This document shows positions 1,595 to 17,907 of a DNA stretch of 44,610 nucleotides, in pieces (positions within the stretch are counted from its first letter, which is position 1; every line of letters begins with the position of its first letter). The notes under the pieces were generated by a model. It saw nothing but the letters and a program-made list of their open reading frames with translations, ran no database searches and was not told the origin of the DNA. The position numbers were made by a program, and so were the translations under genes. The stretch is taken from NCBI GenBank assembly GCA_020402745.1, contig JADBYZ010000021.1, positions 1-44,610 of the forward strand. The letters are read 5' to 3'. The DNA comes from Phenylobacterium sp. GTDB taxonomy: Bacteria; Pseudomonadota; Alphaproteobacteria; Caulobacterales; Caulobacteraceae.

Positions 1595-2572
1595 TCAGCT
1601 CGGCCGTGCCGCTGCTCGATCATCAGGTAGTAAACTCTGCTCGGTATACTCTAAGGAGAGGCGTCCGACGAGTTCATCGACGGTTGGAATACCTTGCACC
1701 CCCGAAACGGAGTGTCCCGCACTCCAGATGTCTCGCCAACGCCTCGGACCATCCCCCTCCGGGCCATAGAGGGCCCGGGCGACGTCAGGATCCGGATTGC
1801 GGTCGAGGGCGTCGGGATCAAGTCCTGCCGCCCGTACTGACGGGCGTAGAATGCTCGTCGGTAGACCTGTGAAAGCGGGCGTCAGGATCACGTCATCCAT
1901 GCCGCTGTCGACCAGCATTTGCTTGTAGGCCTCCGGGGCGGCGCTTTCGTGGGTCGCGATGAAGCGCGTTCCCATGTAGCCGAGATCACATCCTAGGACC
2001 TGCGCCGCCCGCAGGGAGACGCCATCCGACAGGCCACCCGCGAGTATCAGGGGGCCATCGAAGAAGGCGCGGACGGCGCGGACGAATGCGAACGGATTGG
2101 CCCATCCGGTCTGGCCGCCGGCGCCGGCCGTCAGGAGGACAAGTCCGTCCGCACCGGCCCGGATCGCGCGGTGAGCATGTTGCAGCGAGGCGACGTCCGC
2201 GAACACGAGGCAGCCTGCCTTGCGAAGCGGCGCGACGACTGGCTCAGGCGATCCGACGCTGGTAATCACCAGCTCCACGCCGTGGGCGATCAGGCGATCG
2301 AGATCTGCGCCGAGGGTAGGGCTGCGCATGATCAGGTTCGGGCAGAAGGGCGCCTCGCGAGGAGACAGTCGGCTTCGTAGCTGAGCCAGCCAGTCATCAA
2401 GTTCGTCGGTCGAGCGGCAGTTGGCGGTCGGAAAGGCGCCGATCACGCCGGCCTTGCAGCTGGACTCGACGAGCCGGAGCCCGGAGACCCGCAGCATTGG
2501 CGCGGCAATCACTGGAAGCGATAGCCGGCCCAGGATGTCGGCCAACGCGTCCGGCAGGGTGCCGCCAATCAC
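1595..2572 (-). CDS. Nitronate monooxygenase (2-nitropropane dioxygenase family)
   Basis: This 325-residue protein is a TIM-barrel FMN enzyme of the NMO family. It starts with the typical first-strand motif LPVIAAPMLRVSG (about residues 18-30), has GADGLVLLTAGAGGQTGW (about 145-160) and GPLILAGGLSDG (about 173-185) for phosphate binding, and GCDLGYMGTRFIATHES (about 194-210), the family's C-terminal FMN-binding signature. Family members oxidise nitronates or related acidic-carbon substrates; several annotated NMOs are really enone reductases or oxidases. Its ATG overlaps the stop of the acyl-CoA ligase by four bases, so it is the last gene of the leftward sulfatase operon and probably acts in the cytoplasm on a product of the same pathway. 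Confidence 0.88.
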   Translation of the reverse strand: MIGGTLPDALADILGRLSLPVIAAPMLRVSGLRLVESSCKAGVIGAFPTANCRSTDELDDWLAQLRSRLSPREAPFCPNLIMRSPTLGADLDRLIAHGVELVITSVGSPEPVVAPLRKAGCLVFADVASLQHAHRAIRAGADGLVLLTAGAGGQTGWANPFAFVRAVRAFFDGPLILAGGLSDGVSLRAAQVLGCDLGYMGTRFIATHESAAPEAYKQMLVDSGMDDVILTPAFTGLPTSILRPSVRAAGLDPDALDRNPDPDVARALYGPEGDGPRRWRDIWSAGHSVSGVQGIPTVDELVGRLSLEYTEQSLLPDDRAAARPS

Positions 2573-4134
2573 CGCTGGCCCTCGGCAGGACTGATCACAG
2601 GGGCGGCGAGTGTCACCGCCAGTTCCCTGAGCTCCCGTTTCAGAACCTTGTCCAAGAGCCCCTTCGGTAGCTCGTCGACCACATGAAGGATCCGGGGCCT
2701 CTTGAAGTCCGCCAGTCGCTCAAGGCACCTCGCATGAATGGCGGCGAGCGTCTCGTCAGTTTGTCCCTCTATAACGACAAAGGCGACAGGGACCTCGTCC
2801 AGCATACGATCCGGAAGTCCGACGACAGCGGCCTCCCTGACGCCTGCGACCTGAAGAATGACCTCCTCGATCTCGATGGCAGCGACGTTCTCGGCTCCTA
2901 CCTTGAGCATGTCCTTGGTGCGTCCCGCATAGAAGGCGTGACCGTCCGGGGTGGCGATGACCTGATCGCCGGTGCAAAACCACCCGTCAGTGTCGAAGGC
3001 CTTTGAAGTGGCCTGCGGATCGTGGAGGTAGCCTTGGAAGATGGTCACGCCGGGCAGGCCCTTGATCCAGAGGGTGGCCACCTCGCCCGGTGAAGGCGGA
3101 AGTCCGTCCTCACGCCTCAGGTCCACCCTGTAGCCAGGATTCGGCCTCCCCACGGAGCCCTCCGGGCCGGGGAGATGCAGGTCCGAACTCAAGGGCTGGC
3201 TAACCATCTCGGTCATCCCGAAAGCCCCCAGCGTCCGGATGCCCCATCGGGAACGAACGGCCTGCAAGTCCCCTGCGCAGACCCAGGTTCGGAACCTGTG
3301 CTCTGGCGGATCCGGCAGCCCGGAGACCGCCTGGAGGGTGAAGCCGACCATGTTGGCCCAGGTGCACCCATGGGTCACCGCCACATCCCAGAACCGGGTC
3401 GCGGAAAAGCGCTGCATCAGGACGACGCTTCCCCCTGAATGAAGGGTCCCGAGGAAATTCCAGCTTAGGGCGACGGCGTGGAAAAGCGGGAGGAAGACGA
3501 GGCAGCGGTCCTCAGGCGTCAGTCCAAAGTGCGTGGCGTTGGCGCGGGCCGCCCACAGCACATTCGCGTGGGTCCAGACCACACCCTTCGGGCGCGCCGT
3601 CGTCCCGGAGGTATACATAACGCTGCAAGGCGCCTCTGGCGTCGCCTCCCAGGTCGGGCAGGCTTCGGGTTGAGCCCTCAGTGTGTCCAGGGAATGGGCG
3701 TCCGGCAGGTCTGTCGGATCGATCGAGACAATCCAGCGACAGTTTGCCGCCCTCTGCTTGAGCAGGCCGGCATAGGCCGAACTGGTGATCGCACCTACGG
3801 CCCGGGAATGTTCCACAAAATAGACGAGTTCGTCCCGGGTCGCCCGGGTATTCGTTGTCACCGCGACCGCCCCGATGCGAGCACAGGCGAACCAGGCCAG
3901 CAGCAGGGCTGGATGATTGTCGAGATGGATGATGACGGCATCGCCAGGCTTCACGCCCATGCCGGCCAGACCTGCGGCGTAGGCGCGGGTCTCGTCTGCG
4001 AAACCCGCGTAGCTGTAGACCTTGGTCTCACCTTCGGCGGGGCTCCAGATCAGCAATGGCTTGTCGCCGAAGCGCAAGGCCTGCCTGTCGAGAAGGTCCG
4101 GCGCATTGCGACCCACAAAGGGACTGAGCTCCAT
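2569..4134 (-). CDS. AMP-dependent acyl-CoA synthetase/ligase
   Basis: This 521-residue adenylate-forming enzyme has the P-loop-like A3 motif YTSGTTARPKG (about residues 174-184), the A5 motif FGMTEM (about 310), the A7/A8 region GWFCTGDQV then GRTKDMLKVGAENV (about 400-425), and a C-terminal KGLLDKVLKRELRE carrying the likely catalytic lysine. It should activate a carboxylic acid to an acyl-AMP and then an acyl-CoA in the cytoplasm; the acid cannot be read from the sequence. A good RBS (GGAGGT) lies seven bases before the ATG. It is fifth in the leftward operon, 157 bases after the hydrolase and overlapping the monooxygenase. Its presence suggests that the desulfated product of the locus is a carboxylic acid. 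Confidence 0.9.
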   Translation of the reverse strand: MELSPFVGRNAPDLLDRQALRFGDKPLLIWSPAEGETKVYSYAGFADETRAYAAGLAGMGVKPGDAVIIHLDNHPALLLAWFACARIGAVAVTTNTRATRDELVYFVEHSRAVGAITSSAYAGLLKQRAANCRWIVSIDPTDLPDAHSLDTLRAQPEACPTWEATPEAPCSVMYTSGTTARPKGVVWTHANVLWAARANATHFGLTPEDRCLVFLPLFHAVALSWNFLGTLHSGGSVVLMQRFSATRFWDVAVTHGCTWANMVGFTLQAVSGLPDPPEHRFRTWVCAGDLQAVRSRWGIRTLGAFGMTEMVSQPLSSDLHLPGPEGSVGRPNPGYRVDLRREDGLPPSPGEVATLWIKGLPGVTIFQGYLHDPQATSKAFDTDGWFCTGDQVIATPDGHAFYAGRTKDMLKVGAENVAAIEIEEVILQVAGVREAAVVGLPDRMLDEVPVAFVVIEGQTDETLAAIHARCLERLADFKRPRILHVVDELPKGLLDKVLKRELRELAVTLAAPVISPAEGQR

Positions 4135-4291
4135 TATTCAACCTCCAATGAGGGGCGTGGCACGTCTGGGCACCCTCACCCTCCAGCGTTCCTCGACCAT
4201 GGCGGCCCTTATGGGATTTCGGCGGTCGACGCCGCAGACGTGCGATTGGAGGGACGCGAAGTCCCACCTGCCGCCCGGATCGGATCTGACC

Positions 4292-5131
4292 TCATCCCAG
4301 GCTCTTCACATACGTGATCACTGTGTCCGCGATCAGCTGGGGCTGTTCTGGAAGCATGGCGTGACCGGCGTTGGGCGCCTCGATTACGGAGACCTGGGCG
4401 CCGAGCTCCTCCTTGAGGATCCGGGCGTTTGCTGGGGGAGCGAGGATGTCTTCCCGGCCCTGGATGACCAGGATTGGCCGCCCTCCCGCCTTCCACCAGA
4501 GCTCGACGGGAGTCTGTTCCGACGCGTGCAGCTGAGCGCGGGCCGCATCGGGCCACCACCCATCTCTCCAGGGAGACGCGTCATTGCCCGGCGCAAAGAA
4601 CGCCTTGCCGACCGCCTTCATCCGGACCTGGTCCGGGAGGGAGAGGTCAAAGCACTGCAGGAAGATCGGCTCGATGTCCGGCGCCATCCGCACTCGACCT
4701 CCCGCGGCGAGGAGGATCACGGCCCGCACGCGGGAGGGTTCGAGGCTTGCAAGGCGTCGAGCGACGCGATTGCCGAAGGCGTGTCCGACCACGATTGCGG
4801 GCTCGGCGGAGACGTCATCCAGGACGGCCAGGACGTCCTTCGCCAGATCATCCAGGCGCAGGGCCTGCATCGGGCCCCGGCTCTCCCCAATACCCCTCGG
4901 CTGCGGACAGATGGCCCGGAATCCCGCCTTGGAAACCGCCGCAGCCAACTGGCCGAAATCTTCAGCCCCACGGCCCAGAGACGGCAGGAAGATAACAGGC
5001 GCGCCGCGCCCCACGACCCGATAATGCAGGGTCGCCTCTCCCGAACGCACCGTTCGGCCCTCCCCTTCCAGGGCGGCGCCAGCGAGGCCGACGCCCAGGA
5101 TCCCGCCATTCAGGTCTCGGCGCGACATCAT
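4292..5131 (-). CDS. Alpha/beta hydrolase-fold protein with Ala at the nucleophile position
   Basis: The 279-residue product shows the alpha/beta hydrolase core: an oxyanion region VIFLPSLGRG (about 46-55), a nucleophile-elbow sequence VVGHAFGNRVAR (about 114-125), an acid loop VIQGREDILAPP (about 220) and a histidine region APNAGHAMLPEQP (about 255). The elbow reads G-H-A118-F-G where a hydrolase would have G-x-S-x-G, so the usual Ser is absent while the Asp and His candidates remain. The N-terminus SRRDLNGGILGVGLAGAAL resembles a twin-arginine signal without a clear cleavage site. The start overlaps the hotdog gene's stop (ATGA). It may be a non-hydrolytic fold member, such as a lyase or binding protein. 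Confidence 0.85.
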   Translation of the reverse strand: MMSRRDLNGGILGVGLAGAALEGEGRTVRSGEATLHYRVVGRGAPVIFLPSLGRGAEDFGQLAAAVSKAGFRAICPQPRGIGESRGPMQALRLDDLAKDVLAVLDDVSAEPAIVVGHAFGNRVARRLASLEPSRVRAVILLAAGGRVRMAPDIEPIFLQCFDLSLPDQVRMKAVGKAFFAPGNDASPWRDGWWPDAARAQLHASEQTPVELWWKAGGRPILVIQGREDILAPPANARILKEELGAQVSVIEAPNAGHAMLPEQPQLIADTVITYVKSLG

Positions 5132-6099
5132 CCCGACGCGCCCTCATATTCGGGATAGCCGGGGAACGAGGCCTTCAGATAAGCTTGGTTCAATAGCAGG
5201 GTCGCCACCAGATGGTCCTCGCCCTCCCTGAAGACGGAGGTTCGCATCCAGAGGCTCTCGGTTCTTCGGCTGCCGCTCATCGCGATCATGGTCCGTTCGA
5301 TCTCGTAGGTTTGTCCGACGAAGAGCGGGCCATCAATCAGGCGTATCTCCTGGTCTGCAAAGAGTCCGACCACGGGATTCCGAACGGGGATGGGCTCATC
5401 TGCAATGGTGTACTGGCCAAGGACGCTGATCATCTCGAAAGGGAGGATCGCCTTTTTCCAGGGCGTCTCAGAAGCCGTCGCCGGATCATAGGCCGGAGAG
5501 GGCTCTGTGATGCTCTGCAGCTTGTCCCGCAGACTGAACGGGTACAAGGCGCCCATGGGCCGGGCGAACTCCATGACCACCTGACGACGGGGCGTCGTCG
5601 ACCCCAATCGGATGTCAGCCAGGATGCGACGATCCTGGAGTGGCTCCAACTCAGTGAGCCGGAGGTCCAGCGACGTCTGCCCATGGTCAGGCCCGAGGGA
5701 GATCGTCCCGCGAAGCACCTCCACGCCGTCACGCTTGAGGACCTGAACCTCAGCCCTCCGGGGGTCGCGCTCTAGTCGGATCTGGGCCTGCGTCTCCTCA
5801 CCCTCGAAGCAGGGAGCCCGGTAGTGGGCGGAGATGCAACCCCGCGCGAGGAAGTCTTCGCCCCAGATCCGCACGCCGAGGGGCGCGAGCAGGCTGAAAT
5901 GAGTGGGCCCCTCAATCGTTCCGCCGCGAAAGCCCAGCTTGCTTGCCGTGTCATCGTCGTGGATCGACTTGTGCCCATCATAGGACTGCGCGGTCAGCAT
6001 GTTCCGTGGCGACCGCCAGGGGCCGACAAGCACTCCATCGGGCTTGGCCTCGATCGGCGTTTTGAAGAGGAGAGGCATTTCGGCTCCGGCTGGGTTCAT
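5128..6099 (-). CDS. MaoC/hotdog-fold protein, function unknown
   Basis: I use the ATG at 6097-6099 (323 residues) because AAGGCGGA lies just upstream and this start leaves a 64-base gap after the sulfatase; a longer frame begins at 6192 inside that gene. The N-terminal half carries a MaoC-like stretch, HKSIHDDDTASKLGFRGG then IEGPTH (about residues 43-68), matching the D/N-x-H...A...GF...G hydratase pattern of (R)-enoyl-CoA hydratases. The second half (about 190-315) looks like a second diverged hotdog domain. The Asp-His spacing is one residue longer than in classical MaoC proteins, so hydratase activity is uncertain. By context it should act in the cytoplasm on the same CoA-bound or free product as the acyl-CoA ligase. 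Confidence 0.65.
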   Translation of the reverse strand: MNPAGAEMPLLFKTPIEAKPDGVLVGPWRSPRNMLTAQSYDGHKSIHDDDTASKLGFRGGTIEGPTHFSLLAPLGVRIWGEDFLARGCISAHYRAPCFEGEETQAQIRLERDPRRAEVQVLKRDGVEVLRGTISLGPDHGQTSLDLRLTELEPLQDRRILADIRLGSTTPRRQVVMEFARPMGALYPFSLRDKLQSITEPSPAYDPATASETPWKKAILPFEMISVLGQYTIADEPIPVRNPVVGLFADQEIRLIDGPLFVGQTYEIERTMIAMSGSRRTESLWMRTSVFREGEDHLVATLLLNQAYLKASFPGYPEYEGASG

Positions 6100-6163
6100 G
6101 TTCCGCCTTGGGCCCGAGCTGCGGCGGATCCGCTCCACCCGGCTCGCCATCCAAGGCCTTGGA

Positions 6164-7657
6164 TTAATTGAAGAGTTGAACCTTTCGTCCATTCACCTCG
6201 ATGCTGAATTGACGGCGACTGGTATACATTGGAGGCACATTCGAGGCATCCCAGGCGGCGAACCGGCTCTTCAGGTCCGCAACGACTTCCGGATGACGGG
6301 TGGCGAGGTCCTGGGTCTGGCCGGGATCCGCCTTCATGTCATACAGCAGCGTGTATTGGCCGAGCGGTGAGACCGTCGCAGGCACCCCGTCAGGCACGGG
6401 TCTTCCGACAAGGCTCTCCGGATCCTCTGCAGTCTCTGACTTGTTGACCACAACCAGGCTCCAGCGATCGGTCCTGACGACGTGATTGGGGCCCATGCGC
6501 CAGAACAGGGTTCTTTCGGCGCGGGCTCTTCCCCCGGACCCCATCAGACGGACCAGGTCGAGCCCCTCTGCGGCCTTCGGCGTCTGAGCACCGGCAACCG
6601 CCGCGATAGTCGGCAGGATATCGAGGGATGAGACAGGACGATCGCTGACACTAGGCCTCAGCTTGGCCGGCCAGGACATGATGAATGGCACACGGATTCC
6701 ACCGTCCCACGGTAGGGCCTTGTGTCCGGAAAGAGGGGCGTTCGAACAAGCGCCGCGAATGTAGAAGGGACACCCATTATCGCTCAGGAACACCAAAAGC
6801 GTATTGTTCCTCTGTCCTGTGGCCTCGAGGGCCTTGAGGAGCCGACCGACACCATCATCCAGTGACGAAACCATCGCCGCATAGACGCGGTGATGGGTGT
6901 CCTCGATGTCCGGGAAGCGTTCAAGGTAGGTCTCAGCGGCCATCAGGGGGGTGTGTGGCGCGGTGTAAGCAAGGTAAAGGAAGAACGGAACTTCGCGCTT
7001 CCGGGACACAAACTCCACGGCCTCGTCGGTAAACCTGTCCGTAAGGTAGCCCGGCGCTTCCACAACCTCCCGGCCCCGATAGACCGGCATACGGTCCCGG
7101 TTGAAGCTCTTCAGGTCAGCGGTTGCGGCGACTTCATCACCCAGCTCGGGTCCGGGGTCGGGAAAGTAGGACGTCCCGCCATCAAGCACGCCGTAGAAAC
7201 TTCCGAATCCCCGGTCCAGCGGATGGTATCCTGGCGACTTTCCGAGATGCCATTTCCCGACGATCCCCGTATCGTAGTTGTTGTCCCGCAAAAGCGCGGG
7301 GATCATGACCTCGGTCGTGGGGGGGCCTATGCGCTCGTCGCGTCCGACGGGATTGAACTCGAATCCGAAACGGGTCTGGGGACGACCGGTCAGCAGACCC
7401 GCCCGGGACGGTGCGCACACGGCGGCAGTGACATAACCGCTCGTAAAGCGAACGCCGGATCGCGCAAGGGCGTCTAGGTTGGGTGTTGGAATTCGGCTGC
7501 CTTGCGCGCTGATGTCGCCGTATCCAAGATCGTCCGCGAGGATGACTACGACATTGGGGCGCATATCACCGGCCCGGGCGCCTGAGGTCACGGAGCCTTC
7601 TAGGGCGAGAGCGCCGACGATCGCCGCAAGGCTTGTGGCGATAGGTCGCATGAACAT
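6164..7657 (-). CDS. Secreted type I sulfatase (formylglycine-dependent), copy 1
   Basis: This 497-residue alkaline-phosphatase-fold sulfatase starts with a Sec signal peptide (to about residue 29, SGARA|G). It has VVVILADDLGYGD for metal binding (about 36-48) and the FGly site C81-A-P-S-R followed by AGLLTG. Later motifs are GKWHLGKSPGYHPLDRGF (about 136-153), LFLSDNGCPFY with DNG (about 290) and the SGHK motif. It hydrolyses a sulfate ester in the periplasm after Cys81 is converted to formylglycine by the FGE at 16141. A pair of cysteines around SDNGC...ACSNAP is shared with the sulfatase at 13696. RBS AAAGGTGA precedes the ATG. It is second in the leftward operon. The substrate is not predictable. 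Confidence 0.95.
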   Translation of the reverse strand: MFMRPIATSLAAIVGALALEGSVTSGARAGDMRPNVVVILADDLGYGDISAQGSRIPTPNLDALARSGVRFTSGYVTAAVCAPSRAGLLTGRPQTRFGFEFNPVGRDERIGPPTTEVMIPALLRDNNYDTGIVGKWHLGKSPGYHPLDRGFGSFYGVLDGGTSYFPDPGPELGDEVAATADLKSFNRDRMPVYRGREVVEAPGYLTDRFTDEAVEFVSRKREVPFFLYLAYTAPHTPLMAAETYLERFPDIEDTHHRVYAAMVSSLDDGVGRLLKALEATGQRNNTLLVFLSDNGCPFYIRGACSNAPLSGHKALPWDGGIRVPFIMSWPAKLRPSVSDRPVSSLDILPTIAAVAGAQTPKAAEGLDLVRLMGSGGRARAERTLFWRMGPNHVVRTDRWSLVVVNKSETAEDPESLVGRPVPDGVPATVSPLGQYTLLYDMKADPGQTQDLATRHPEVVADLKSRFAAWDASNVPPMYTSRRQFSIEVNGRKVQLFN

Positions 7658-7709
7658 GGGTCACCTTTCTCGAGAGAACGGCATGAAAGGGTGGAGATTT
7701 CCCCTGCGG

Positions 7710-7756
7710 GCTTCTGCGCCCCGGCGACTCCGGGTCGCATGGGCGCCCGCAGAAGC
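7710..7756. other. Large inverted repeat between the two leftward sulfatase genes
   Basis: GCTTCTGCG (7710-7718) pairs with CGCAGAAGC (7748-7756), and an inner CCCGG (7720-7724)/CCGGG (7730-7734) hairpin lies in the loop. It falls in the 101-base gap between the sulfatase genes and lacks a T-run on either strand. It could stabilise or attenuate the transcript between the two sulfatases; it is not a canonical terminator. Confidence 0.45.
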
Positions 7757-7758
7757 TG

Positions 7759-9210
7759 CTACTGGTCGTGGAAGACGACTCTCCCGCAATGGAAGACTTG
7801 GAACCCACTCGTGGGAGCCCAGGCTGGCGGCTTCATTTCCGATTGCCACACCTTGTAGCGCGCCTGGAGTTCCCGGGTGCGATCGGGAGCCTCAAACATC
7901 AGGTTTCGTGTCTCAAGTGGGTCCCGCTTGAGGTCAAAGGTCCAGGGAAAGCTGTTTGGACGGCTGTTCGACATCAGCTTCCAGTCTCCCATCAGAGCGG
8001 CGAACTCGGGACCGGTTCGCCAGAAAAGCGCTTCATGGATCGGGGTGTCGTCACCGTTCATCCGGGGCGTGAGGTCGAACCCGTCGAGGGCCTTATCCGC
8101 CGGAATTCCCGCCGCAGCCAGGATGGTCGGGTAGAGATCGAGGTGCGAGACATTACGGCTCTCCTGCCGACCCTTAGGCCACTGGGCAGGCCATGAAACG
8201 ATGTAGGGCACCCTGGCTCCACCCTCGTTGTAGCTAAGCTTTCCGCCGCTCAGCCGGGTACAATCAGACACCCCGAAGTAGGTCGCAGCTCCATTGTCGG
8301 AGGTGAAAACGACGATGGTGTTTTCGGACATGCCCGCTTCCTGGAGGGCCGACATCACACGTCCGACACTATCGTCCAGGGCGCTCACCATGGCCGCGTA
8401 GGTCCGTTTGAGCGGATCTTTTTCCCGCGGGAATCGATCGTAGTACTTCCGGGAGGCTTGGAACGGGCTGTGGGGCGCCAGGTGGGCTAGGTACATGAAA
8501 AGCGGTGGATCACCGGGCTTCTGACGACGAATATGGCCGACCGCCTCGTCAGTGAGCGCATCCGTCAAATACTGGCCTTCGTTACGGATCCACTCCGGTC
8601 CCGGATTGCCGGAGCGCCAGCGGCCGATCTGCGTCGACTCCGCCTCGCGCCGGAAGCTCCGCTCGCCCACGTAGGGCGCAGCCTGGTTGACCACCCCCGT
8701 GGACCCCGGATCCATGTAAGAGGTCTCGCCGCCGAGGAACCCGAAGAACTCATCAAATCCACGTGCTGTCGGCAGCCTGTCAGTGCTGATCCCAAGGTGC
8801 CACTTTCCGATGGCGACGGTGCGGTATCCAGCTCCCTTGAGCTTCTCGGACACAAGAGTCTGTCCTGGCTGCAGGCCCCCGTCCGGCTGCCGCGGACTGG
8901 AAGGCGCGAGGTACTCGAACCCGTAGCGCTGCTGATACTGACCCGTGAGAAGACCTGCGCGCGAGGGACTGCAGACGCTTGCGGTCGAGTAGCCCCGCGC
9001 AAACTTCACGCCTCGCGCTGCGATCCGGTCGATGTTGGGGGTCGGGATGGCCGATGGATAGCCGTAGGAACTGAGGTCTGTGACGCCCAAATCATCAGCC
9101 ACGATCATGATCACATTGGGCCGCGTCCACTTCGACTCCTGACCAGACGCCACACCGGGGGAAAGGCCAAGGACCGTCGCCGCCAGGGCTGCCATTTTTC
9201 TGAACTTCAT
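7759..9210 (-). CDS. Secreted type I sulfatase (formylglycine-dependent), copy 2
   Basis: With the ATG at 9208-9210 (RBS GGAGG eight bases upstream) the product has 483 residues and a clear Sec signal peptide (MKFRKMAALAATVLGLSPGV, cleavage near ASG|Q). A longer frame from 9258 lacks these features. Motifs are VIMIVADDLGVTD (about 33-45), the FGly site C80-S-P-S-R, GKWHLGISTDRLPTARGF (about 137-154), FTSDNGAATYFG (about 300) and LSGGK. It lacks the CSNAP cysteine motif of the other two sulfatases and belongs to a different branch, so it probably removes a different sulfate or acts at another step. It is the first gene of the leftward operon and lies back to back with the GntR gene. Confidence 0.95.
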   Translation of the reverse strand: MKFRKMAALAATVLGLSPGVASGQESKWTRPNVIMIVADDLGVTDLSSYGYPSAIPTPNIDRIAARGVKFARGYSTASVCSPSRAGLLTGQYQQRYGFEYLAPSSPRQPDGGLQPGQTLVSEKLKGAGYRTVAIGKWHLGISTDRLPTARGFDEFFGFLGGETSYMDPGSTGVVNQAAPYVGERSFRREAESTQIGRWRSGNPGPEWIRNEGQYLTDALTDEAVGHIRRQKPGDPPLFMYLAHLAPHSPFQASRKYYDRFPREKDPLKRTYAAMVSALDDSVGRVMSALQEAGMSENTIVVFTSDNGAATYFGVSDCTRLSGGKLSYNEGGARVPYIVSWPAQWPKGRQESRNVSHLDLYPTILAAAGIPADKALDGFDLTPRMNGDDTPIHEALFWRTGPEFAALMGDWKLMSNSRPNSFPWTFDLKRDPLETRNLMFEAPDRTRELQARYKVWQSEMKPPAWAPTSGFQVFHCGRVVFHDQ

Positions 9211-9421
9211 GAAGTGCACCTCCGCCCGGGGTCGTACAAATCTGTCTGCAATAAACAATCATAGTGTCGTCTGTTTTGACAAGAGAGGCTTTAGGCGTTT
9301 CCTTGTCGTCCCGCTTGCGGCTTGCCGGAACTCTGAAGTCGGGTTCAGACAGGGTGCAGGAAGTCGAATCCGCCAGCCGCACCTTCGATGCGGAAAAGGC
9401 GTGCATCAGGAGCATCGTGGC
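9211..9421. promoter_or_regulatory. Divergent control region between leftward sulfatases and gntR
   Basis: The 211 bases between the sulfatase start and the GntR start must hold the promoters of both blocks. On the minus strand an AT-rich stretch (9243-9284) contains TATGAT, but no well-spaced -35 box. TTGACA occurs here on the plus strand (about 9275) and again in the TonB receptor promoter. I cannot identify a firm operator, although a GntR protein encoded next to its own divergent region usually binds there. Confidence 0.4.
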
Positions 9422-10168
9422 TTGAAGTCAGAGAAAGCGAATGAGGGTCGATTCACTCCCCCCGACATCGCCCGCGCTGTTCGCGGCATGATCGTTAGTG
9501 GGGAGCTGCGGCCCGGCGATCACCTGAGCACGATCGACCTCGCGGCGCGGTTTTGCGTAAGCCGCGGCCCCGTAAGAGAGGCGCTCCGCCTGCTGGAGTC
9601 TCGCGCTCTGGTGCGTATCCTTCCACGCAAGGGCGCATTCGTGAACTCTCTTCAGGATGATGAAGTCGGCGTCACGATGGAGGCGCGCGAGCTCATATTC
9701 GCAGCTATGGCGGAACTTGCGGCGGAACGGATCAGCCGGAGCCAGCTCACGGACCTGCGCCGCGAGCTGCAACGACTGGCGCGCCTAGCAGACGCCCCGA
9801 AAACGACGCCAAACGAGTTCAAGCTTGCAACGTACGCCTTTGTTTCCGTCTTGTACGGTGCAGCGCGCAATCCTCGTCTCCATCAGATCATCCGCGATCT
9901 ATCCGAGGGCGTAGGCCATGCGTTCGGCCACCTGAGCATGGCGACCCAGGAGATGCGGCAGGCAGAGTACGAAGCTTATCGGCTGCTGGCGGATGCGGTT
10001 ACGGACCACGACCCAAGACGGGCAGGCGACCTCGCGAGGCGAATGCACGCCGCGGGCGTCGCCCGGGCGACCCAGCTCCAGGCGGCCGTTCCCCAGCCGG
10101 TGATCGAGTTCAAGGGAAAGCGCCGCCGATCAGGGCGCTCGGAACCGCGAACGCAGCCAGTGATCTGA
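9422..10168 (+). CDS. GntR-family (FCD-type) transcriptional regulator
   Basis: I start this gene at TTG 9422 because AGGAG lies nine bases upstream and the winged helix begins soon after; the frame is open further upstream to an ATG at 9209. The 248-residue product has a GntR winged helix (about residues 13-75: IVSGELRPGDHLSTIDLAAR, FCVSRGPVREALRLLESRAL) and an all-helical FCD-like effector domain. FCD domains normally bind metal through an Asp and three His. Here the usual FH and EH positions read as other residues (AFVSVLYG, AEYEAYRLL) and only the final H of RRMHAAGV remains, so ligand binding may be metal-independent. It probably controls both divergent blocks in response to the locus substrate. 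Confidence 0.9.
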   Translation: MKSEKANEGRFTPPDIARAVRGMIVSGELRPGDHLSTIDLAARFCVSRGPVREALRLLESRALVRILPRKGAFVNSLQDDEVGVTMEARELIFAAMAELAAERISRSQLTDLRRELQRLARLADAPKTTPNEFKLATYAFVSVLYGAARNPRLHQIIRDLSEGVGHAFGHLSMATQEMRQAEYEAYRLLADAVTDHDPRRAGDLARRMHAAGVARATQLQAAVPQPVIEFKGKRRRSGRSEPRTQPVI

Positions 10169-10268
10169 ACTGTCCGAAACGGGCGCGTCTCACGAGCTTG
10201 GTCGCCCAATCAAGACCCTCCGCCGACGCGCCGGCGCTGCGAGGGGCAAATGGCGAGTGGACACACGA

Positions 10269-10310
10269 AAACTGGAAAGTGTTGACAGTTTCGGACGGGC
10301 CATCATTCTA
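10269..10310 (+). promoter_or_regulatory. Predicted promoter and overlapping inverted repeat upstream of the TonB receptor
   Basis: TTGACA (10282-10287) and ATTCTA (10305-10310) are spaced by 17 bases, a good vegetative promoter 33 bases before the receptor ATG. An inverted repeat AAACTG-N11-CAGTTT (10269-10291) overlaps the -35 box, which is where a repressor such as the adjacent GntR protein would bind. Binding is inferred, not shown. Confidence 0.45.
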
Positions 10311-10342
10311 GGTGCGTCGATAGAGTCACCGGGAGGAAGCCC

Positions 10343-12556
10343 ATGTCCAAGTCTATCCAACGCCACCTTCTGCTGGGCGGCGCCGGCGTGGCGGCGCTAC
10401 TCGCATGCGCGCCCTCCCCGGCCATTGCGCAGGTCAGAAGTGAGAGTGAGACGGCATCGGTGGGCGAGGTCGTCGTAACGGCCAGGCGACGTGAGGAAAG
10501 GCTACGCGACGTACCCGTCTCGGCCTCCGTTATCGACGTGAACCAGCTCATCGAGCGCGGGGACATTGTTGACCCCCAGGCGATCCTGAACAGCGTCCCG
10601 GGCGTTAAGTTTCTTGATACGTCTTCGCCATCGAACTCGGAGATCACTCTCAGGGGCTCAGGACAGGGCCGGGGAACCTCAACAGAGGCCGCCGTCGGAC
10701 TTTACCGGAACAACATGTACATCGGCGGAGGTACGATCGGCGGGCGCAGTCTGAGCCGCCTTGATCTCCTCGATCTTGAACAGCTTCAGGTCCTGCGCGG
10801 CCCGCAGGGCGCGCTTTACGGCCGCAACGCCATCGGCGGCGCCATAACCGTCTCGTCAGCCCGACCGCGATGGGACAACCGTGGCTTCGTGAACGTGAAT
10901 TATCAGTTCGAGACCGAACTGAAGCAGGTTCAGGCCGCCGTGAACCACGCGGTGTCGGACCAGGTCGCTATCCGCCTGACAGGCGAGTGGTTCGATCAAC
11001 CCAAAGGCTTCTTTTTCAATGCGTCACAGCGCAATTTCATAGATCGTCAGGAAGGTTACGCTCTTCGCGGGCAGATCCGATTCCGGCAGGACGATCTGGA
11101 TATGAACCTTCTGGTGGAGGACGGGCTCTACTATCTGCCCGGCCTCCGCTCGGCGTTCACAGTTGCCGCCGGATCCCCCGGCTTCCCCTTCGGATACTTC
11201 ACGCCGAAGTATACATCCTACGCGAACGACGGAGAGCCCGCCAAGCAACGGGTTCAATCCGTGATCGGCCAGTTATCATGGGAATCGGACCTCGGCACGC
11301 TTTCAGGCTCTACAGGATTCCGGCGTCGTATCACGAACACAGAGAACGATACCGACCAGTTCGACCCAGCGACCTTGGCCCGCGAGAGGGCCCGCGGTAA
11401 CGCCACAACCATCACCGACGCCAACACTGCGACCAATAACAACGATGACTTCGAAGCGCTCTACGCGGACTTTCACTTTGCGGGGGCCCAGTCTGGTCGG
11501 TTCAGTTGGCTGATCGGATTCGAGGCCTTTTACAGCGACGACCAGTTCACGACCGTGACGGGACGGACCCCGACCCCCGCCAATGCATCCCTGGGCAACT
11601 TCCTGCCGGGACGCGGGCGCTATATGTCCTGGGCGCCATATGGATCCATTGGGTTCAAGCTTACCGACTCCTTCAGCGCCGAGGGAGAGATGCGCTACTC
11701 CAATGACGAGAAGGAGCGTCAGAACTTCGGGTTCACCCGACCGACAAATGCGCCGATCCCGGCTCAGACCAGCGAGGACTCGGATGAATTTTCGAACCTC
11801 GATTATGCGCTGTCGCTGACCTATGAACTGCCATTTGACTGGATCGTGTTTGGTCGGTTGGCCACCGGTTATCGGGCAGGTGGGTTCAATGCGAGCGTCG
11901 GTGATTCGCGGGCTCCTAGACCGGTTGTGCCGACCTATCAGCCTGAAAACGGGACGTCGTACGAGGTTGGTGCAAAGGGCGACCTCGGTCGCAACATTTT
12001 CGTCACTTTGGCCGCCTATCAGACCGAGGTCGAGGACTTCCAAGGCCAGGTTGACAACGGCTGCGCAGTGACCAATCCGGTGTGCCCGGTGGTTTCGACG
12101 TCCTTCATCTCAAACGTCGGCAAAGCGGAAGTCTGGGGCCTAGAGCTGACGGCAAGTGGCCGTTGGGAACTCCTTGGCGGACGCCTGAGGGCGGACGCCA
12201 GCCTTTCGCGTCAAGGCGGGAAACTGAAGTCGACGGGACGCCGCATTCAGCAGAACCCGGACTGGACCCGGGCGTTGGAGGTCAACTTCCGCCGTCCTGT
12301 AGTCGGAGACGCGGAGGGTTTCCTCAATCTCTCCTACTCTGGCCAGACGGGCGGATTCCAGGAAATCGACTCCGCCCTGGAACTCGATGATAGAGACCTG
12401 CTGGACGCACGCCTCGGGGTTACCTTCGAGCGGGTCGAGCTTTCCGCTTACGCAAACAACGTCACTGACGAGAGCTACGTTGTGTTCCGGAGCGCGACCC
12501 AGGTTCGTTTCAGCGATCCTCGCCGGTACGGTGTCCAGGTCCGGTACCGTTGGTAA
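10343..12556 (+). CDS. TonB-dependent outer-membrane receptor
   Basis: This 737-residue protein has a Sec signal peptide (to about residue 29, SPAIA|Q), a TonB-box-like EVVVTARRREERL (about 41-53), a plug domain with LRGPQGALYGRNAIGG (about 152-167), and a long beta-rich barrel ending in RYGVQVRYRW with a terminal aromatic residue as required for outer-membrane insertion. It has no N-terminal signalling (FecR-type) extension. GGAGGAAGCCC precedes the ATG. It should import a compound too large or scarce for porins, energised by TonB-ExbBD encoded elsewhere. Its place between the regulator and the secreted esterase/sulfatase genes argues for uptake of a sulfated organic substrate rather than a siderophore. 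No SusD-like partner is present. Confidence 0.95.
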   Translation: MSKSIQRHLLLGGAGVAALLACAPSPAIAQVRSESETASVGEVVVTARRREERLRDVPVSASVIDVNQLIERGDIVDPQAILNSVPGVKFLDTSSPSNSEITLRGSGQGRGTSTEAAVGLYRNNMYIGGGTIGGRSLSRLDLLDLEQLQVLRGPQGALYGRNAIGGAITVSSARPRWDNRGFVNVNYQFETELKQVQAAVNHAVSDQVAIRLTGEWFDQPKGFFFNASQRNFIDRQEGYALRGQIRFRQDDLDMNLLVEDGLYYLPGLRSAFTVAAGSPGFPFGYFTPKYTSYANDGEPAKQRVQSVIGQLSWESDLGTLSGSTGFRRRITNTENDTDQFDPATLARERARGNATTITDANTATNNNDDFEALYADFHFAGAQSGRFSWLIGFEAFYSDDQFTTVTGRTPTPANASLGNFLPGRGRYMSWAPYGSIGFKLTDSFSAEGEMRYSNDEKERQNFGFTRPTNAPIPAQTSEDSDEFSNLDYALSLTYELPFDWIVFGRLATGYRAGGFNASVGDSRAPRPVVPTYQPENGTSYEVGAKGDLGRNIFVTLAAYQTEVEDFQGQVDNGCAVTNPVCPVVSTSFISNVGKAEVWGLELTASGRWELLGGRLRADASLSRQGGKLKSTGRRIQQNPDWTRALEVNFRRPVVGDAEGFLNLSYSGQTGGFQEIDSALELDDRDLLDARLGVTFERVELSAYANNVTDESYVVFRSATQVRFSDPRRYGVQVRYRW

Positions 12557-12618
12557 CCTCAGGGCGCGCTAAGCACGCCCCCTCAATTCTCTTCGGGTTG
12601 TCTCGGGAGCCTTGTCTG

Positions 12619-13638
12619 ATGAAGAACCGCGTTCGCCCTAGCGGGATGCTTCGGTGTCTTCTGCCGGCACTTCTGTTACTGTCATCAAGAGACGCTGTAG
12701 CGCAATCCCTGGACAGGGCATCCCTTCCACCGCCATCGCTCGCCGCGGATATCGCCAATCCTCAGCTTATGAAGGGGCTGACGCAACGCGGGCTCAGGGT
12801 GGGCGGGAGTGAGAGAATCTATTTCATCCATACGCCCCCGACGGAGGCCCGCAACCTACCCGTAGTTATCGCTCTCCACGGTGGAAACGGGACAGCGCCT
12901 CGAAGGGCTCGGCAGATGGGGTTCAACGACATCGGGGATCGCGAGGGGTTCATCGCCGTCTATCCGCAGGGCGTGAACTACGGCTGGAATGATGGCCGCG
13001 CCTCGCCGGATATGCTCAGGCGCCTGGAAAGCGCGGACGATGTCGCTTTCTTCCGGGCTCTGATCGGCGAGTTACGCGCCCTGCCACAGGTCGATCCGCG
13101 ACGCATCTACCTCGTCGGCGGATCAAATGGTGGCATGATGACCCACCGCTTAGCCTGCGAGATGACCGACCTGATCGCAGGCGCTGTCGTGATGGTGGCC
13201 AGCCTCCCGGAACCTCTTCAGAGCTCATGCAGGCCAGGTCAGGCGGTGCCAATCCTGATGATGAATGGAACTGCAGACCCGCTGGTGCCCTATGCAGGAG
13301 GTGCCGTAGGGGGGCGACAAGTCGACCAGGGTCGCGTGCTTCCGGCGGAAGACACCCTGCGTTTCTGGGTCCGGGCGAATGGCTGCTCAGGTGAGCCAGA
13401 GCTGCGAACCATACCCGACCGCGATCCTGAAGACGGCATGACCACCGAGGGGCGAACATGGAAGACGTGTAGGGATGGCGTCGAAGTGGCGTTCCTCCGG
13501 ATGAACGGCGCAGGTCATGGGCTTCCAGGAAGGTCCCGAAACAAGGCGGCGCTCGCCGAGGAGTTGGGCGGCCGATCGACGAACGATTTCGACAGCAGCG
13601 AGGAAGCATGGACCTTCCTGAAGCGCTTCAGCCGCTGA
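12619..13638 (+). CDS. Secreted PHB-depolymerase/feruloyl-esterase-like (LpqC type) esterase
   Basis: Starting at ATG 12619 the product has 339 residues with a Sec signal peptide (LLPALLLLSSRDAVAQ, cleavage near residue 29). It has the CE1/LpqC pattern: oxyanion motif VVIALHGGNGTA (about 82-93), Ser169 in LVGGSNGGMMTHRLAC, an Asp in MNGTADPLVPYAGG (about 220) and His in NGAGHGLPG (about 300). Family members cleave polyhydroxyalkanoates, feruloyl or acetyl esters outside the cytoplasm. It lies 62 bases after the TonB receptor and 57 before the third sulfatase, all on one strand, so it is probably in the same transcript and removes an acyl group from the same substrate. Confidence 0.88.
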   Translation: MKNRVRPSGMLRCLLPALLLLSSRDAVAQSLDRASLPPPSLAADIANPQLMKGLTQRGLRVGGSERIYFIHTPPTEARNLPVVIALHGGNGTAPRRARQMGFNDIGDREGFIAVYPQGVNYGWNDGRASPDMLRRLESADDVAFFRALIGELRALPQVDPRRIYLVGGSNGGMMTHRLACEMTDLIAGAVVMVASLPEPLQSSCRPGQAVPILMMNGTADPLVPYAGGAVGGRQVDQGRVLPAEDTLRFWVRANGCSGEPELRTIPDRDPEDGMTTEGRTWKTCRDGVEVAFLRMNGAGHGLPGRSRNKAALAEELGGRSTNDFDSSEEAWTFLKRFSR

Positions 13639-13695
13639 GAACACCCGTGAGGGCTTCGGACGCATACCGGGGACATAGACAGGAGACTGACCATC

Positions 13696-15117
13696 GTGCG
13701 AATTCCTGAGTGTCTCAAGCGCCTTGCGGTGATGATCGCCCTGTGCTGTAGCGCGCCTCCCGCCCTGGCCGAAGCGAGACCGTCCAATATCGTCCTGATC
13801 ATTGCCGATGATCTGGGTGTCGGCGATGTCCGGTATCTGCGCTCCGGTCCGTTTGCGACCCCAAACCTCGATCGTCTCTCAAGGGAGAGTACTCTCTTCA
13901 CGAACGCCTACGTGACGGCGGCGGTATGCAGTCCGTCGCGGGCGGGTCTTCATACCGGTCGCTACCAGGCCCGCTTCGGCCACGACTTCAACCCTGGAAG
14001 CGCCAGCGACCAGGCGGAGATGTCGCTCCCGCCGGGCGTCCCGACGATAGCAGGGCGCCTGCAACGGGCAGGCTACTTCACCGGTCTGGTTGGAAAGTGG
14101 CATTTAGAGGGACGTCGCGCCGGTGCGTCACCGCTGGAACGCGGCTTTGAACATTACTTCGGGTTCGCCAGCGGCGGATCCTATATCCTCAATCCGAGGG
14201 AGGGGGATCTACTTCTCCGTACCGAAGGCGAACACAATGAGCGGACGCGGTCGCAGGGCTTCAGCCGCATGGGGGCTCCAGTCGAAATTGATGACTACAA
14301 GACCGACGTCCTTACCCGGGAGGCGTTAGAATTCCTTGCCCGGGCGGATACGGAGGACCGCCCCTTCTTCCTTGTTCTCGCCCACCATGCGCCGCATGTC
14401 CCGCTAGAAGCGACCAAGGCCTATGTCGACCGCGTAGCCCACATCACGGACCCTCGGCTTCGCGCTTACGCCGCCATGGTGACCGCCCTCGATGACAGCG
14501 TCGGGGCTGTGCTCGAAGACCTGAGCCGACGAGGCCTGAGGGAGAAAACTCTCATCATTTTCCTTAGCGACAATGGCTGCCCGCCCTACATCTCCCAAGT
14601 CTGCTCCAACGCCCCGTACTCCGGTCATAAGCGCGACCTTGGCGAGGGGGGGCTTCGGTCGCCATTCCTCATCCGATGGCCAAAGGGGACCGACGGACCC
14701 AAGGTCTACTCGAAGCCGGTGATCTCACTCGATCTTGCCGGCACCATTCTCGGCGCCGCCGGGCTTCAGGACCAGATACGCGACATCGACGGCGTCGACC
14801 TTTCCATCCATGTGAAGGCGAGCGGGATGACGCCCCATGAGGCCCTCTACTGGCGAGCAGGAACGGACCTCGCCATCCGGAAGGGGGGCTGGAAGCTGAT
14901 ACAGGTCGATCTGCCCCAGGGCGGACGCCAGAGCTTCCTTTTCGATCTGCAGCGCGATCCCGGTGAAACCCGCAATCTCGCGCCAGTTCACTCCGAAAAG
15001 GTTCGTGAACTGGAGGCGACCTGGCGCCGCTGGAATGAGGGAAATACGCCCTCAAGGATGCAGGGGCGGGTGACGACGACGCGAATTGCGGGCGTCGAGG
15101 TTCTGGCGCGCTACTGA
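13696..15117 (+). CDS. Secreted type I sulfatase (formylglycine-dependent), copy 3
   Basis: A GTG start at 13696 with AGGAGA upstream gives 473 residues and a signal peptide ending near PALAEA (about residue 26). Motifs are IVLIIADDLGVGD (about 32-44), the FGly site C78-S-P-S-R then AGLHTG, and LSDNGCPPYISQVCSNAP then YSGHK (about 293-318). The DNGC/CSNAP cysteine pair is shared with the sulfatase at 6164, so these two are closer to each other than to copy 2. GKWHLEGRRAG departs from the common GKWHLG-x-P pattern in the active-site region and may reflect another substrate. Its stop overlaps an upstream in-frame start of the next hydrolase (TGATG). Confidence 0.95.
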   Translation: MRIPECLKRLAVMIALCCSAPPALAEARPSNIVLIIADDLGVGDVRYLRSGPFATPNLDRLSRESTLFTNAYVTAAVCSPSRAGLHTGRYQARFGHDFNPGSASDQAEMSLPPGVPTIAGRLQRAGYFTGLVGKWHLEGRRAGASPLERGFEHYFGFASGGSYILNPREGDLLLRTEGEHNERTRSQGFSRMGAPVEIDDYKTDVLTREALEFLARADTEDRPFFLVLAHHAPHVPLEATKAYVDRVAHITDPRLRAYAAMVTALDDSVGAVLEDLSRRGLREKTLIIFLSDNGCPPYISQVCSNAPYSGHKRDLGEGGLRSPFLIRWPKGTDGPKVYSKPVISLDLAGTILGAAGLQDQIRDIDGVDLSIHVKASGMTPHEALYWRAGTDLAIRKGGWKLIQVDLPQGGRQSFLFDLQRDPGETRNLAPVHSEKVRELEATWRRWNEGNTPSRMQGRVTTTRIAGVEVLARY

Positions 15118-15152
15118 TGTGGTCGAGCGGCAACTTTCTCCGGAGGACTAAG

Positions 15153-16115
15153 ATGAGGACTAAGATGAAGGCTCTGATCGGGGTTGTTCTGGCGGCGATC
15201 GTCTCCGCGTCGGCCGCGCATGCGGGTCCGGAAAGGATAGTCACCGAATTCACGATCCCGTCGAGCGATCAGACACAACTCAAGGCAGTTCTCAGCTTAC
15301 CCGCTGGCCGAGGCCCCTTCCCCACGGTGATTACGGTCCATGGCGGCAAGGGCGGGCGGGATTTCGACTTCATACGGACCCTCGCTACGCCCTCTGAGGG
15401 GGCGAGCAAGACTCCCACGGTGGACATGCTCAACGAGACAGGCTGGGCGATATTGTCGATCGGATACCGGGATGGGGCCATCCTCGGCGCCGAAGAAGAC
15501 GATGTGATCGCAGCCCTCAGATTCGCTCGAAACAACCCCGCGCTTGATCCGAGGCGCGTCGCGCTTCTCGGTGGCAGTCACGGGGGCAACCTAGTCCTCC
15601 GGACGGCGATCCGTACCGGCGACGAGGCCTCTTGCTTCGCTGTCGGAGCGCCATGGATGACCAACCCGGCCCTTTATCTGAAGGGCGATTTCTCCAGACC
15701 ACCCTTGTCGGAAGTCGGAGGGGAGACAGTGCGGTTCATGACAATGACCCGGCAAGCGCTGCTTTCAGGTCTGGCCCGCCGAGGACTGGTCGGGGCGGAA
15801 CTCGATCGGGTAATCACGGCGAGGAGCATCGAGCTCAACGCCGGTAGGATCATGTCCCCTACGCTTTTTCTCATTAGCGAGGCGGATGTTCAGGTCCCCG
15901 CTAGACTTGTCGAGCCCACGATTGCGGCGATGCGGGCTGCCGGCCGCAAGGTGGAAGTTCTGAAGGTCAAGGAGAGTGCGCACGGTTTCTACTGGGGTCG
16001 GCCGGGAGATGGGCTCCGGGTCAGGCCGGCCGCAAAGACGCCCGCTCAGCTGGCCGAGGAGGAGATGGCCAGGACCGCGATCCGAAACTTCCTCACCCGA
16101 TGTCTTTCGTCCTGA
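15153..16115 (+). CDS. Secreted alpha/beta hydrolase (prolyl-oligopeptidase/dienelactone-hydrolase-like)
   Basis: I choose the ATG at 15153 because GGAGGACTAAG precedes it directly and it starts a clean signal peptide (MKALIGVVLAAIVSASAAHA). The frame also opens at 15117, overlapping the sulfatase stop. The 320-residue protein has VITVHGGKGGRDFD (about 59-72), Ser132 in LLGGSHGGNL, an acidic loop LISEADVQVPARLVEP (about 240) and His in KESAHGFYWGRP (about 275), so the full Ser-Asp-His triad is present, unlike the hydrolase at 4292. The specific ester or amide is unknown. It sits between a sulfatase and the FGE gene, 25 bases before the latter. Confidence 0.85.
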   Translation: MRTKMKALIGVVLAAIVSASAAHAGPERIVTEFTIPSSDQTQLKAVLSLPAGRGPFPTVITVHGGKGGRDFDFIRTLATPSEGASKTPTVDMLNETGWAILSIGYRDGAILGAEEDDVIAALRFARNNPALDPRRVALLGGSHGGNLVLRTAIRTGDEASCFAVGAPWMTNPALYLKGDFSRPPLSEVGGETVRFMTMTRQALLSGLARRGLVGAELDRVITARSIELNAGRIMSPTLFLISEADVQVPARLVEPTIAAMRAAGRKVEVLKVKESAHGFYWGRPGDGLRVRPAAKTPAQLAEEEMARTAIRNFLTRCLSS

Positions 16116-16140
16116 GGCCCCGAGGAGACCTAGACCTCCC

Positions 16141-17067
16141 ATGAGCTGCTGTGCGCCCGGACGTCTCGATCGACCGGAGGTCGAGGCTGGGTCCCTCCCG
16201 GCTCCCGGCGCATCGGTGGACTGCGACTGGCGACACATCCCCGGTGGGGGCTATTTGCTGGGCGGGTCCGACCACGACGCCAACCCGGAGGACGGCGAGG
16301 GTCCGCCGAGACGGGTGACGCTGTCCAGCTTCCGGATCTCGGCCACCACAGTCACGAACGCCCAGTTCGCCGGGTTTGTGAAGGCGACCGGGTACCGCAC
16401 GGAAGCGGAGCGGTTCGGATCCTCCCTAGTCTTTCACACTCTGGTCTCGCGCCGAGTGGCCAGGAGCGTACGGCGGCGCATCGACGGCTCCCCATGGTGG
16501 TGGGAAGTTCCGGACGCCTCCTGGCGCTGGCCTGCGGGCCGGGGAAGCCATGTCACTCTCAAGAGCGAGCACCCGGTCGTCCACGTGTCGTGGAACGACG
16601 CCCTCGCATACTGCGGGTGGGCGGGAGTCCACCTGCCCACCGAGGCCCAGTGGGAGGCGGCGGCGAGGGGCGGCCTTGTCGGTGCGCGGTATCCCTGGGG
16701 CGATGAACTGACCCCCGGAGGCGCCCACATGTGCAACATCTGGCAGGGTGACTTTCCACAGGCCGACACCGCAGAAGACGGTCATCATGGCACTTGCCCC
16801 GTGAAGAGTTTCCCGCCGAACGGATTTGGCCTGTTCGAGGTCGCAGGCAATGTCTGGGAATGGTGCAGAGATGTCTGGACTGCTCAACCGGACCCTAGGC
16901 GCGCTGGCGTCGACCCTGTCGGCCCGCCTGACGGATCGCACAGGGTTATCCGCGGAGGATCATTCCTCTGTCATGCCAGCCACTGCAACCGCTACCGGGT
17001 GGCGGCCCGCTCGGCGAATACGCCCGAGAGCGCCACGTCGAACACTGGCTTCCGTGTTGTCGGCTAG
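16141..17067 (+). CDS. Formylglycine-generating enzyme (SUMF1/EgtB-type sulfatase maturase)
   Basis: This 308-residue protein is a formylglycine-generating enzyme. It begins the FGE fold with IPGGGYLLGGSD (about 33-44), has the family's WWWEVPDASWRWP (about 119-131), HPVVHVSWNDALAYCGWAG (about 146-164), LPTEAQWEAAARGG, and NPGF-type core GLFEVAGNVWEWC, and ends with RGGSFLCHASHCNRYRVAAR. Cys277 and Cys282 match the two copper-binding, catalytic cysteines of aerobic FGEs, and no signal peptide is present. It oxidises the Cys of the CxPxR motif to formylglycine in unfolded sulfatases before export, which all three sulfatases here need. It is last in the rightward block. Activity depends on oxygen and copper, fitting an aerobe. 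Confidence 0.94.
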   Translation: MSCCAPGRLDRPEVEAGSLPAPGASVDCDWRHIPGGGYLLGGSDHDANPEDGEGPPRRVTLSSFRISATTVTNAQFAGFVKATGYRTEAERFGSSLVFHTLVSRRVARSVRRRIDGSPWWWEVPDASWRWPAGRGSHVTLKSEHPVVHVSWNDALAYCGWAGVHLPTEAQWEAAARGGLVGARYPWGDELTPGGAHMCNIWQGDFPQADTAEDGHHGTCPVKSFPPNGFGLFEVAGNVWEWCRDVWTAQPDPRRAGVDPVGPPDGSHRVIRGGSFLCHASHCNRYRVAARSANTPESATSNTGFRVVG

Positions 17068-17700: not shown

Positions 17701-17907
17701 ACCCAGCCCGAGCTGGCCTGTCCCCAGTCCGCGCCCGACGGCCCCCATGCGCGCAAGCTCATCCGGCTCGCCTTCCTCGCCCCGGACCTGCAGGCCTGGA
17801 TCCTCGACGGGCGCCAGCCCCGGGGCCTGACCCTCAAGGCGCTCATGCGCTGGGACATGCCCGCCGACTGGGACGCCCAGAGGCGGGCGTTCGACGCCCT
17901 CCGCTGA
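17701..17907 (+). pseudogene. C-terminal stub of a probable site-specific recombinase
   Basis: One frame (TGA at 17905-17907) gives ARKLIRLAFLAPDLQAWILD, then GRQPRGLTLKALMRWDMPAD and WDAQRRAFDALR. From memory this resembles the C-terminal end of the large serine recombinases common in alphaproteobacteria, whose last helices carry RL-x-LAPDI-x-AIL-x-GRQP. No start is visible, and the broken IS630 joins it at about 17700, so the IS probably removed the catalytic part. Its position beside the tRNA and the right repeat suggests it is what remains of the island's own integration gene, but family membership rests on a short stretch. Confidence 0.5.

Follow-up and report, generated by a model that had tools for sequence, protein, structure and literature searches.

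We describe a block of twelve genes at positions 1595 to 17067 of a 44,610-nucleotide stretch of DNA from Phenylobacterium sp. (GenBank assembly GCA_020402745.1, contig JADBYZ010000021.1), hereafter called the window. It forms the beginning of contig 14 in an assembly of 46 contigs (2.87 Mb). We find that these genes, which include three sulfatases, a formylglycine-generating enzyme (FGE), a TonB-dependent receptor, esterase-like hydrolases, and enzymes of coenzyme A (CoA) pathways, are a unit beyond chance. Judged from its sequence, the unit is bounded by direct repeats and appears to be transferred whole among related bacteria. We propose that it is a mobile cassette whose genes break down a sulfated, esterified organic acid other than a sugar, a proposal to which we give about an even chance and whose substrate class we infer.

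The twelve genes form two divergent blocks, as the initial annotation of the window had claimed. All reading frames are intact, and 11 of the 12 genes match their claimed families in Pfam and NCBIfam scans, the exception being a putative hotdog protein. The reverse-strand block comprises a FabK-like flavoprotein of the nitronate monooxygenase (NMO) family (1595..2572; PF03060, 8e-27; solved FabK relatives), an adenylate-forming acyl-CoA ligase (2569..4134; PF00501, 2e-65), an alpha/beta-fold protein (ABH1; 4292..5131; PF00561), the putative hotdog (MaoC/FAS1-dehydratase-like) protein (5128..6192, start uncertain), sulfatase A (6164..7657; PF00884, 5e-65), and sulfatase B (7759..9210, start corrected to 9210; PF00884, 5e-67). 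The forward-strand block opens with a GntR/FCD regulator (9401..10168; PF00392 and PF07729), whose open reading frame is listed from 9209 and probably starts at 9401 by comparison with relatives. It continues with the TonB-dependent receptor, which has no SusD partner (10343..12556; PF00593 and PF07715), a PHB-depolymerase/feruloyl-esterase-like hydrolase (12619..13638; NF050058, 5e-43, slightly below cut-off), sulfatase C (13696..15117; PF00884, 1e-58), an alpha/beta hydrolase (ABH3; 15150..16115, listed from 15117, true start uncertain; PF07859, 7e-10), and the FGE (16141..17067, start probably 16141; PF03781, 1e-76). As initially annotated, the twelve genes include no glycoside hydrolase, polysaccharide lyase, SusD, or sugar transporter in these scans.

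We regard the genes as a unit because their order is kept in other genomes, because they are under purifying selection, and because the end repeats lie at near-fixed distances. Of 101 genomes of the genus, 5, including the window's own, encode a sulfatase C with at least 75% identity. Two of the others, G048 and G038, carry all twelve genes in the same order. G042 has all twelve over three contig pieces, two of them cut at contig ends, and G030 has 11 on contig pieces, with the esterase not seen. Relative to G048, the ratio of nonsynonymous to synonymous substitution rates (dN/dS) is 0.04 to 0.26 for 12 of 12 genes. A sixth genome, G050, encodes a 47% identical sulfatase C relative within a rearranged copy of the gene set. 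The co-occurrence that the initial annotation had left to be checked is thus confirmed. GatB of the window is 85 to 98% identical to that of seven same-genus genomes, 85 to 87% to that of three named Phenylobacterium, and 75 to 77% to that of two other genera of the family, which places the window in Phenylobacterium; a 16S search of the window's own genome gave no match.

The rearranged copy lies on a 50-kb contig of G050 (contig 30, L080-L082). It comprises sulfatases A, B, and C, two GntR genes, the receptor, the esterase, ABH3, the ligase (81% identity), NMO (82%), and a hotdog remnant; neither ABH1 nor FGE has a match on this contig. The contig also carries further sulfatases (at least five in total), several TonB receptors, four DUF3604 and two HupE-type genes, and genes for an acyl-CoA dehydrogenase, a short-chain dehydrogenase/reductase (SDR), a glyoxalase, and a major facilitator superfamily transporter. 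Among the best 80 loci with sulfatase A relatives in named genomes, a set from which records very close to the window may have been left out, none contains the twelve-gene set (tblastn, 12 proteins), and several of these loci are short. A related TonB receptor (39%) lies near the sulfatase in L091, weaker ones occur in L146 and L155, and an FGE is present in L124, L131, and L153.

The unit is flanked by a 25-bp direct repeat on the forward strand (1401..1425 and 18259..18283). The right-hand repeat extends into the 3′ end of a reverse-strand tRNA-Ser(GCT) gene (18276..18365), the probable integration site. This repeat pattern occurs 0 to 5 times per genome in eight genomes, against 0 times for the reversed control, and is found five times in the window's own genome, three of them on contig 19. 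The repeat lies 170 bp from the NMO gene in the window and 173 bp from it in G048, G038, and G042. In G030, the NMO-side repeat was not found though the contig extends beyond, and likeness to G042 ends about 20 bp before the repeat. On the FGE side, the distance is 332 bp in G048, G042, and G030 and 333 bp in G038; the gap of 1192 bp in the window contains a broken IS630-type transposase remnant (17222..17830, forward strand; NF033545, 5e-6, below cut-off). Repeat-to-repeat spans are 16.9 kb in the window, 16.0 kb in G048, and 16.1 kb in G038.

In the window as in G038, G042, and G030, the tRNA-Ser gene separates the cassette from an enoyl-CoA hydratase (ECH) gene. In G048, the tRNA site and the cassette are on different contigs, so that either the cassette lies elsewhere or the array was split by assembly. 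Genome G150, the closest relative in the comparison, whose GatB is 98% identical to the window's, has no sulfatase C match, and at its tRNA-Ser gene two repeats 1.5 kb apart enclose what by eye is a toxin-antitoxin-like pair. This is a site without the cassette. Furthermore, GC content at third codon positions is 0.69 to 0.78 in the 12 cassette genes and 0.89 to 0.95 in five flanking genes, a foreign composition. Direct repeats, a tRNA 3′ end, foreign composition, and an island-free site in a relative are all shared with tRNA-site genomic islands. The cassette differs from these in that none of its identified genes encodes an integrase, and in that the genome's other repeat-bounded units carry toxin-antitoxin pairs.

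At the end of contig 19 (L264, 116000-127080; positions 6245, 7784, and 8776), the repeats separate short toxin-antitoxin units: HigB-like with a helix-turn-helix (HTH) protein, MqsR/MqsA, and GNAT with a TacA1-like protein. In the window, a Gp49-like/HTH pair at 549-1090 lies beside the left repeat. Together, the repeats and short units look like a cassette array anchored at tRNA-Ser.

The cassette also seems to have exchanged parts. Relative to G038 (L041/L042), synonymous divergence (dS) is 0.19 to 0.52 for NMO, ligase, ABH1, and hotdog genes, compared with 0.47 to 0.63 for the host genes ECH, GatB, and GatA, and 1.0 for MgtC. For sulfatase B, GntR, receptor, esterase, and ABH3, dS is 1.5 to 3.1; sulfatase C is saturated, and sulfatase A and FGE stand at about 0.7. 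Because the uptake and cleavage genes are highly diverged or saturated while the CoA genes are host-like, the uptake/cleavage part seems to have been swapped for an older allele and the CoA part not. Such a module exchange would fit a shift in substrate range.

All three sulfatases have the intact formylglycine (FGly) motif C-x-P-S-R that the initial annotation described (CAPSR in A, CSPSR in B and C), which is common to all S1 sulfatases. The FGE has, in addition to its Pfam match, the stretch GGSFLCHASHC, whose two cysteines we take to be the active-site pair. The window's own genome encodes seven sulfatases, three of them in the cassette, and two FGE-family genes, one of them in the cassette. 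The sulfatases, the feruloyl-esterase-like hydrolase, and ABH3 are predicted to be exported, from N-terminal hydropathy alone. In the latter two hydrolases, Ser, Asp, and His are conserved across all four aligned sequences, in line with the triads first proposed, although which Asp is catalytic we infer; the nearest solved relative of the former is feruloyl esterase 9j07 (6e-19). ABH1 differs: in all four sequences its motif is GHAFG, with Ala occupying the nucleophile position, while Asp and His are kept. Since the nucleophile Ser is replaced throughout and dN/dS is nonetheless about 0.2, which indicates purifying selection, ABH1 is probably not a classical esterase. This serine-less protein in four of four genomes and the mobile cassette itself are what is new here.

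Promoter-like stretches conserved in five genomes, which contain TGTTTTGACA and TGTTGACA, lie at 9210-9401, upstream of sulfatase B and GntR, and at 10168-10343, upstream of the receptor gene. An operator search yielded only such promoter-like conserved stretches. Upstream of the receptor's top plasmid match is a GntR gene, and downstream of it are carboxylesterase and serine-hydrolase genes.

The CoA-side genes stood up unevenly. The ligase and NMO assignments of the initial annotation hold, and the ligase is nearest to FadD13 and 4-coumarate-CoA ligases among solved structures. The hotdog identity is weakly supported. The protein has no Pfam or NCBIfam match and no solved relative, and scans of 13 relatives gave one FAS1-like dehydratase match (E = 0.0044) and one MaoC match (E = 0.23). 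It shares with its relatives invariant HDD and EGPTHFS stretches, which to us look hotdog-like; its structure model, built from a single sequence (mean pLDDT 30.5), is worthless.

We suggest the following pathway. The GntR/FCD regulator would sense the acid product and control both divergent blocks, and the receptor would carry the compound across the outer membrane. FGE would activate the three sulfatases before their export. Because A, B, and C are each conserved as a distinct lineage, every one of them probably serves a different sulfate position or congener. The feruloyl-esterase-like hydrolase and ABH3 would cleave the ester, and the freed carboxylic acid would enter the cytoplasm and be activated by the CoA ligase. 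The NMO-family flavoprotein and hotdog-like protein might then modify the CoA thioester, which would pass to host beta-oxidation. We prefer a non-sugar acid because the cassette has no glycoside hydrolase, lyase, or SusD, and because relatives of NMO and the hotdog protein lie in CoA-dependent operons. Also in favor are the kinship of the esterase to a feruloyl esterase, that of the ligase to FadD13 and 4-coumarate-CoA ligases, and the genes around the receptor's plasmid match. Within that class, an aromatic or phenylpropanoid-type acid is a first guess.

The operon evidence comes largely from plasmids. Of 58 records with NMO relatives, 20 were listed and 12 read; one, unannotated, was dropped, leaving 11 contexts. 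These were compared with seven control stretches at round coordinates from 7 of the same plasmids, whose gene tables are incomplete. We find an adenylate-forming ligase within the 17-kb stretch in 7 of 11 contexts, adjoining NMO in four, and in 1 of 7 controls. CoA-pathway genes accompany hotdog relatives in all three plasmid contexts read (a fourth record is a sister strain with the same coordinates), and in one an NMO-family gene directly adjoins. In Haematobacter, an AMP-binding gene adjoins; Acuticoccus has NMO and enoyl-CoA hydratase nearby; and the Sphingopyxis context contains acyl-CoA dehydrogenases, an SDR, a TonB receptor, and a GntR gene. Operons on Sphingopyxis granuli pRW412b and on plasmids of Cupriavidus also resemble the cassette in having a ligase adjoining NMO and an alpha/beta hydrolase, and in Sphingopyxis a TonB receptor. 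They differ in carrying a carotenoid oxygenase, joined in Sphingopyxis by a ring-hydroxylating dioxygenase, with no sulfatase or FGE listed, and their ligase is only about 26% identical to the cassette's. Elsewhere, by eye, aromatic-ring catabolism genes lie beside the ligase-family gene in 2 of 8 genomes (L202 and L203), with nothing clear in the other six. The closest NMO relatives, in seven genomes, have no neighbor common to all; a P450-like gene was seen by eye in two.

Several observations weigh against the proposed pathway. Some CoA-pathway gene is present in all 11 plasmid NMO contexts and also in 4 of 7 controls, so only the ligase measure is informative. The contexts are not all independent, as two Rhodococcus loci are alike and two Cupriavidus loci are alike. 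Identity to the cassette proteins is low (23 to 27% for context ligases, 29% for the Acuticoccus NMO), and the families are widespread at the cut-offs used (NMO in 112 of 385 genomes, hotdog in 79 of 149). Thus, the neighborhoods support the kind of pathway and not a given substrate. Across 26 hotdog-relative loci, no neighbor family is common to more than six. In G050, only part of the hotdog gene is left (L082 7977-8256) while the ligase and NMO are retained, and the cassette has no inner-membrane transporter. The remaining objections concern mainly the sulfatases and favor a sugar.

On the leading alternative, the cassette acts on a sulfated glycan or glycoside: its sulfatases would take galactose-4-type sulfates and the esterases acyl groups, glycoside cleavage would occur elsewhere or by a 3-keto route, and the CoA genes would handle the acyl group or aglycone. 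Judged from solved structures only, each of the three sulfatases is closest to a carrageenan sulfatase (6bia for A, 1e-85; 6prm for B and C, 2e-74). We take 6bia, 6b0j, and 6prm to belong to SulfAtlas S1_19, and a further solved relative, 9hh2, is labeled S1-19. The S1_19 entries with known activity in the SulfAtlas founding paper (PMC5066984) include carrageenan 4-sulfatases. This FGly-sulfatase kinship is the strongest argument for a sugar substrate. In addition, a related sulfatase of Novosphingobium US6-1 lies 2.8 kb from a GH3 gene. The G050 contig has a Gfo/Idh/MocA gene and a weak 3-keto-disaccharide-hydrolase-like gene (PF06439, E = 0.0006, below cut-off).

However, these sugar-type genes (1.6-2.8 and 11.4-12.1 kb) are about 20 kb from the conserved genes (32-48 kb), although other sulfatases and receptors lie between. 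Apart from the PF06439 match, no glycoside hydrolase or polysaccharide lyase was found in the 17 of 34 open reading frames scanned on that contig. In a quick tree of 129 sulfatase rows, from which tested S1_19 enzymes are absent, there is one clade for each of sulfatases A, B, and C, always with a G050 copy inside it (supports 99, 100, and 100), and with 2 of the 15 rows in these clades flagged for odd composition. All three fall within a 27-row clade (support 96) that has no rows of Catenovulum, Agaribacterium, or Paraglaciecola, genera that degrade algal polysaccharides. The cassette shares with sulfatase-bearing polysaccharide utilization loci (PULs) a TonB receptor, several sulfatases, an FGE, and its own regulator, but its receptor stands alone in place of a SusC/SusD pair, and a CoA ligase and NMO replace carbohydrate-active enzymes (CAZymes). 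Likewise, S1_19 kinship is here unaccompanied by a carrageenase, and the sulfatases are paired with CoA-pathway genes. Because CAZymes and SusD are lacking, we do not adopt an ordinary sulfated-polysaccharide locus; we keep it as the main rival, unlikely but with a real share of the probability. The initial annotation had held that a sulfatase subfamily of known glycan specificity, together with glycoside hydrolases in the cluster elsewhere, would speak against a non-sugar compound. Kinship largely bears out the first and nothing found bears out the second, so its non-sugar reading is backed by gene content and operon relatives and opposed by S1_19 kinship and the G050 sugar-type genes.

We think it improbable that the cassette serves sulfur scavenging, with sulfate as the gain and the organic part a by-product. 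A sulfate-poor habitat would make sense of three sulfatases with an FGE and a receptor, but the ligase, NMO, hotdog, and esterase genes are under purifying selection alongside the sulfatases, and the regulator is of the GntR/FCD type, usually acid-responsive, rather than the CysB type. Slightly less probable again is a locus for sulfated steroids, bile alcohols, or terpenoids, in which the ligase would resemble FadD3 and NMO, on our assumption, IpdC in their roles in side-chain or ring catabolism: NMO relatives do lie near ketosteroid-isomerase-related genes in Rhodococcus and the ligase scores 213 bits against the FadD3-family model (cut-off 657), but no ring-opening or steroid-type gene is among the twelve, and NMO's best NCBIfam match is FabK (91 bits, cut-off 453).

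Bacterial sulfatase loci are usually interpreted as glycan loci. Searches of the open-license literature turned up no description of a locus such as this one. According to the SulfAtlas founding paper (PMC5066984), about 60 FGly-sulfatase subfamilies were without a known substrate. Returning to the sulfated, esterified non-sugar acid, we tentatively suggest, at somewhat less than even chances, that the cassette represents a new class of non-glycan sulfo-ester locus, a counterpart of the sulfatase PUL, moving as a single repeat-bounded cassette in a tRNA-Ser-anchored array beside toxin-antitoxin cassettes. If so, the cassette would offer a clean enzyme set for assays. With three sulfatases, a receptor, esterases, and CoA enzymes in a compact, self-contained, and mobile set, it would also provide a testable handle on the recycling of natural sulfate esters that are not polysaccharides.

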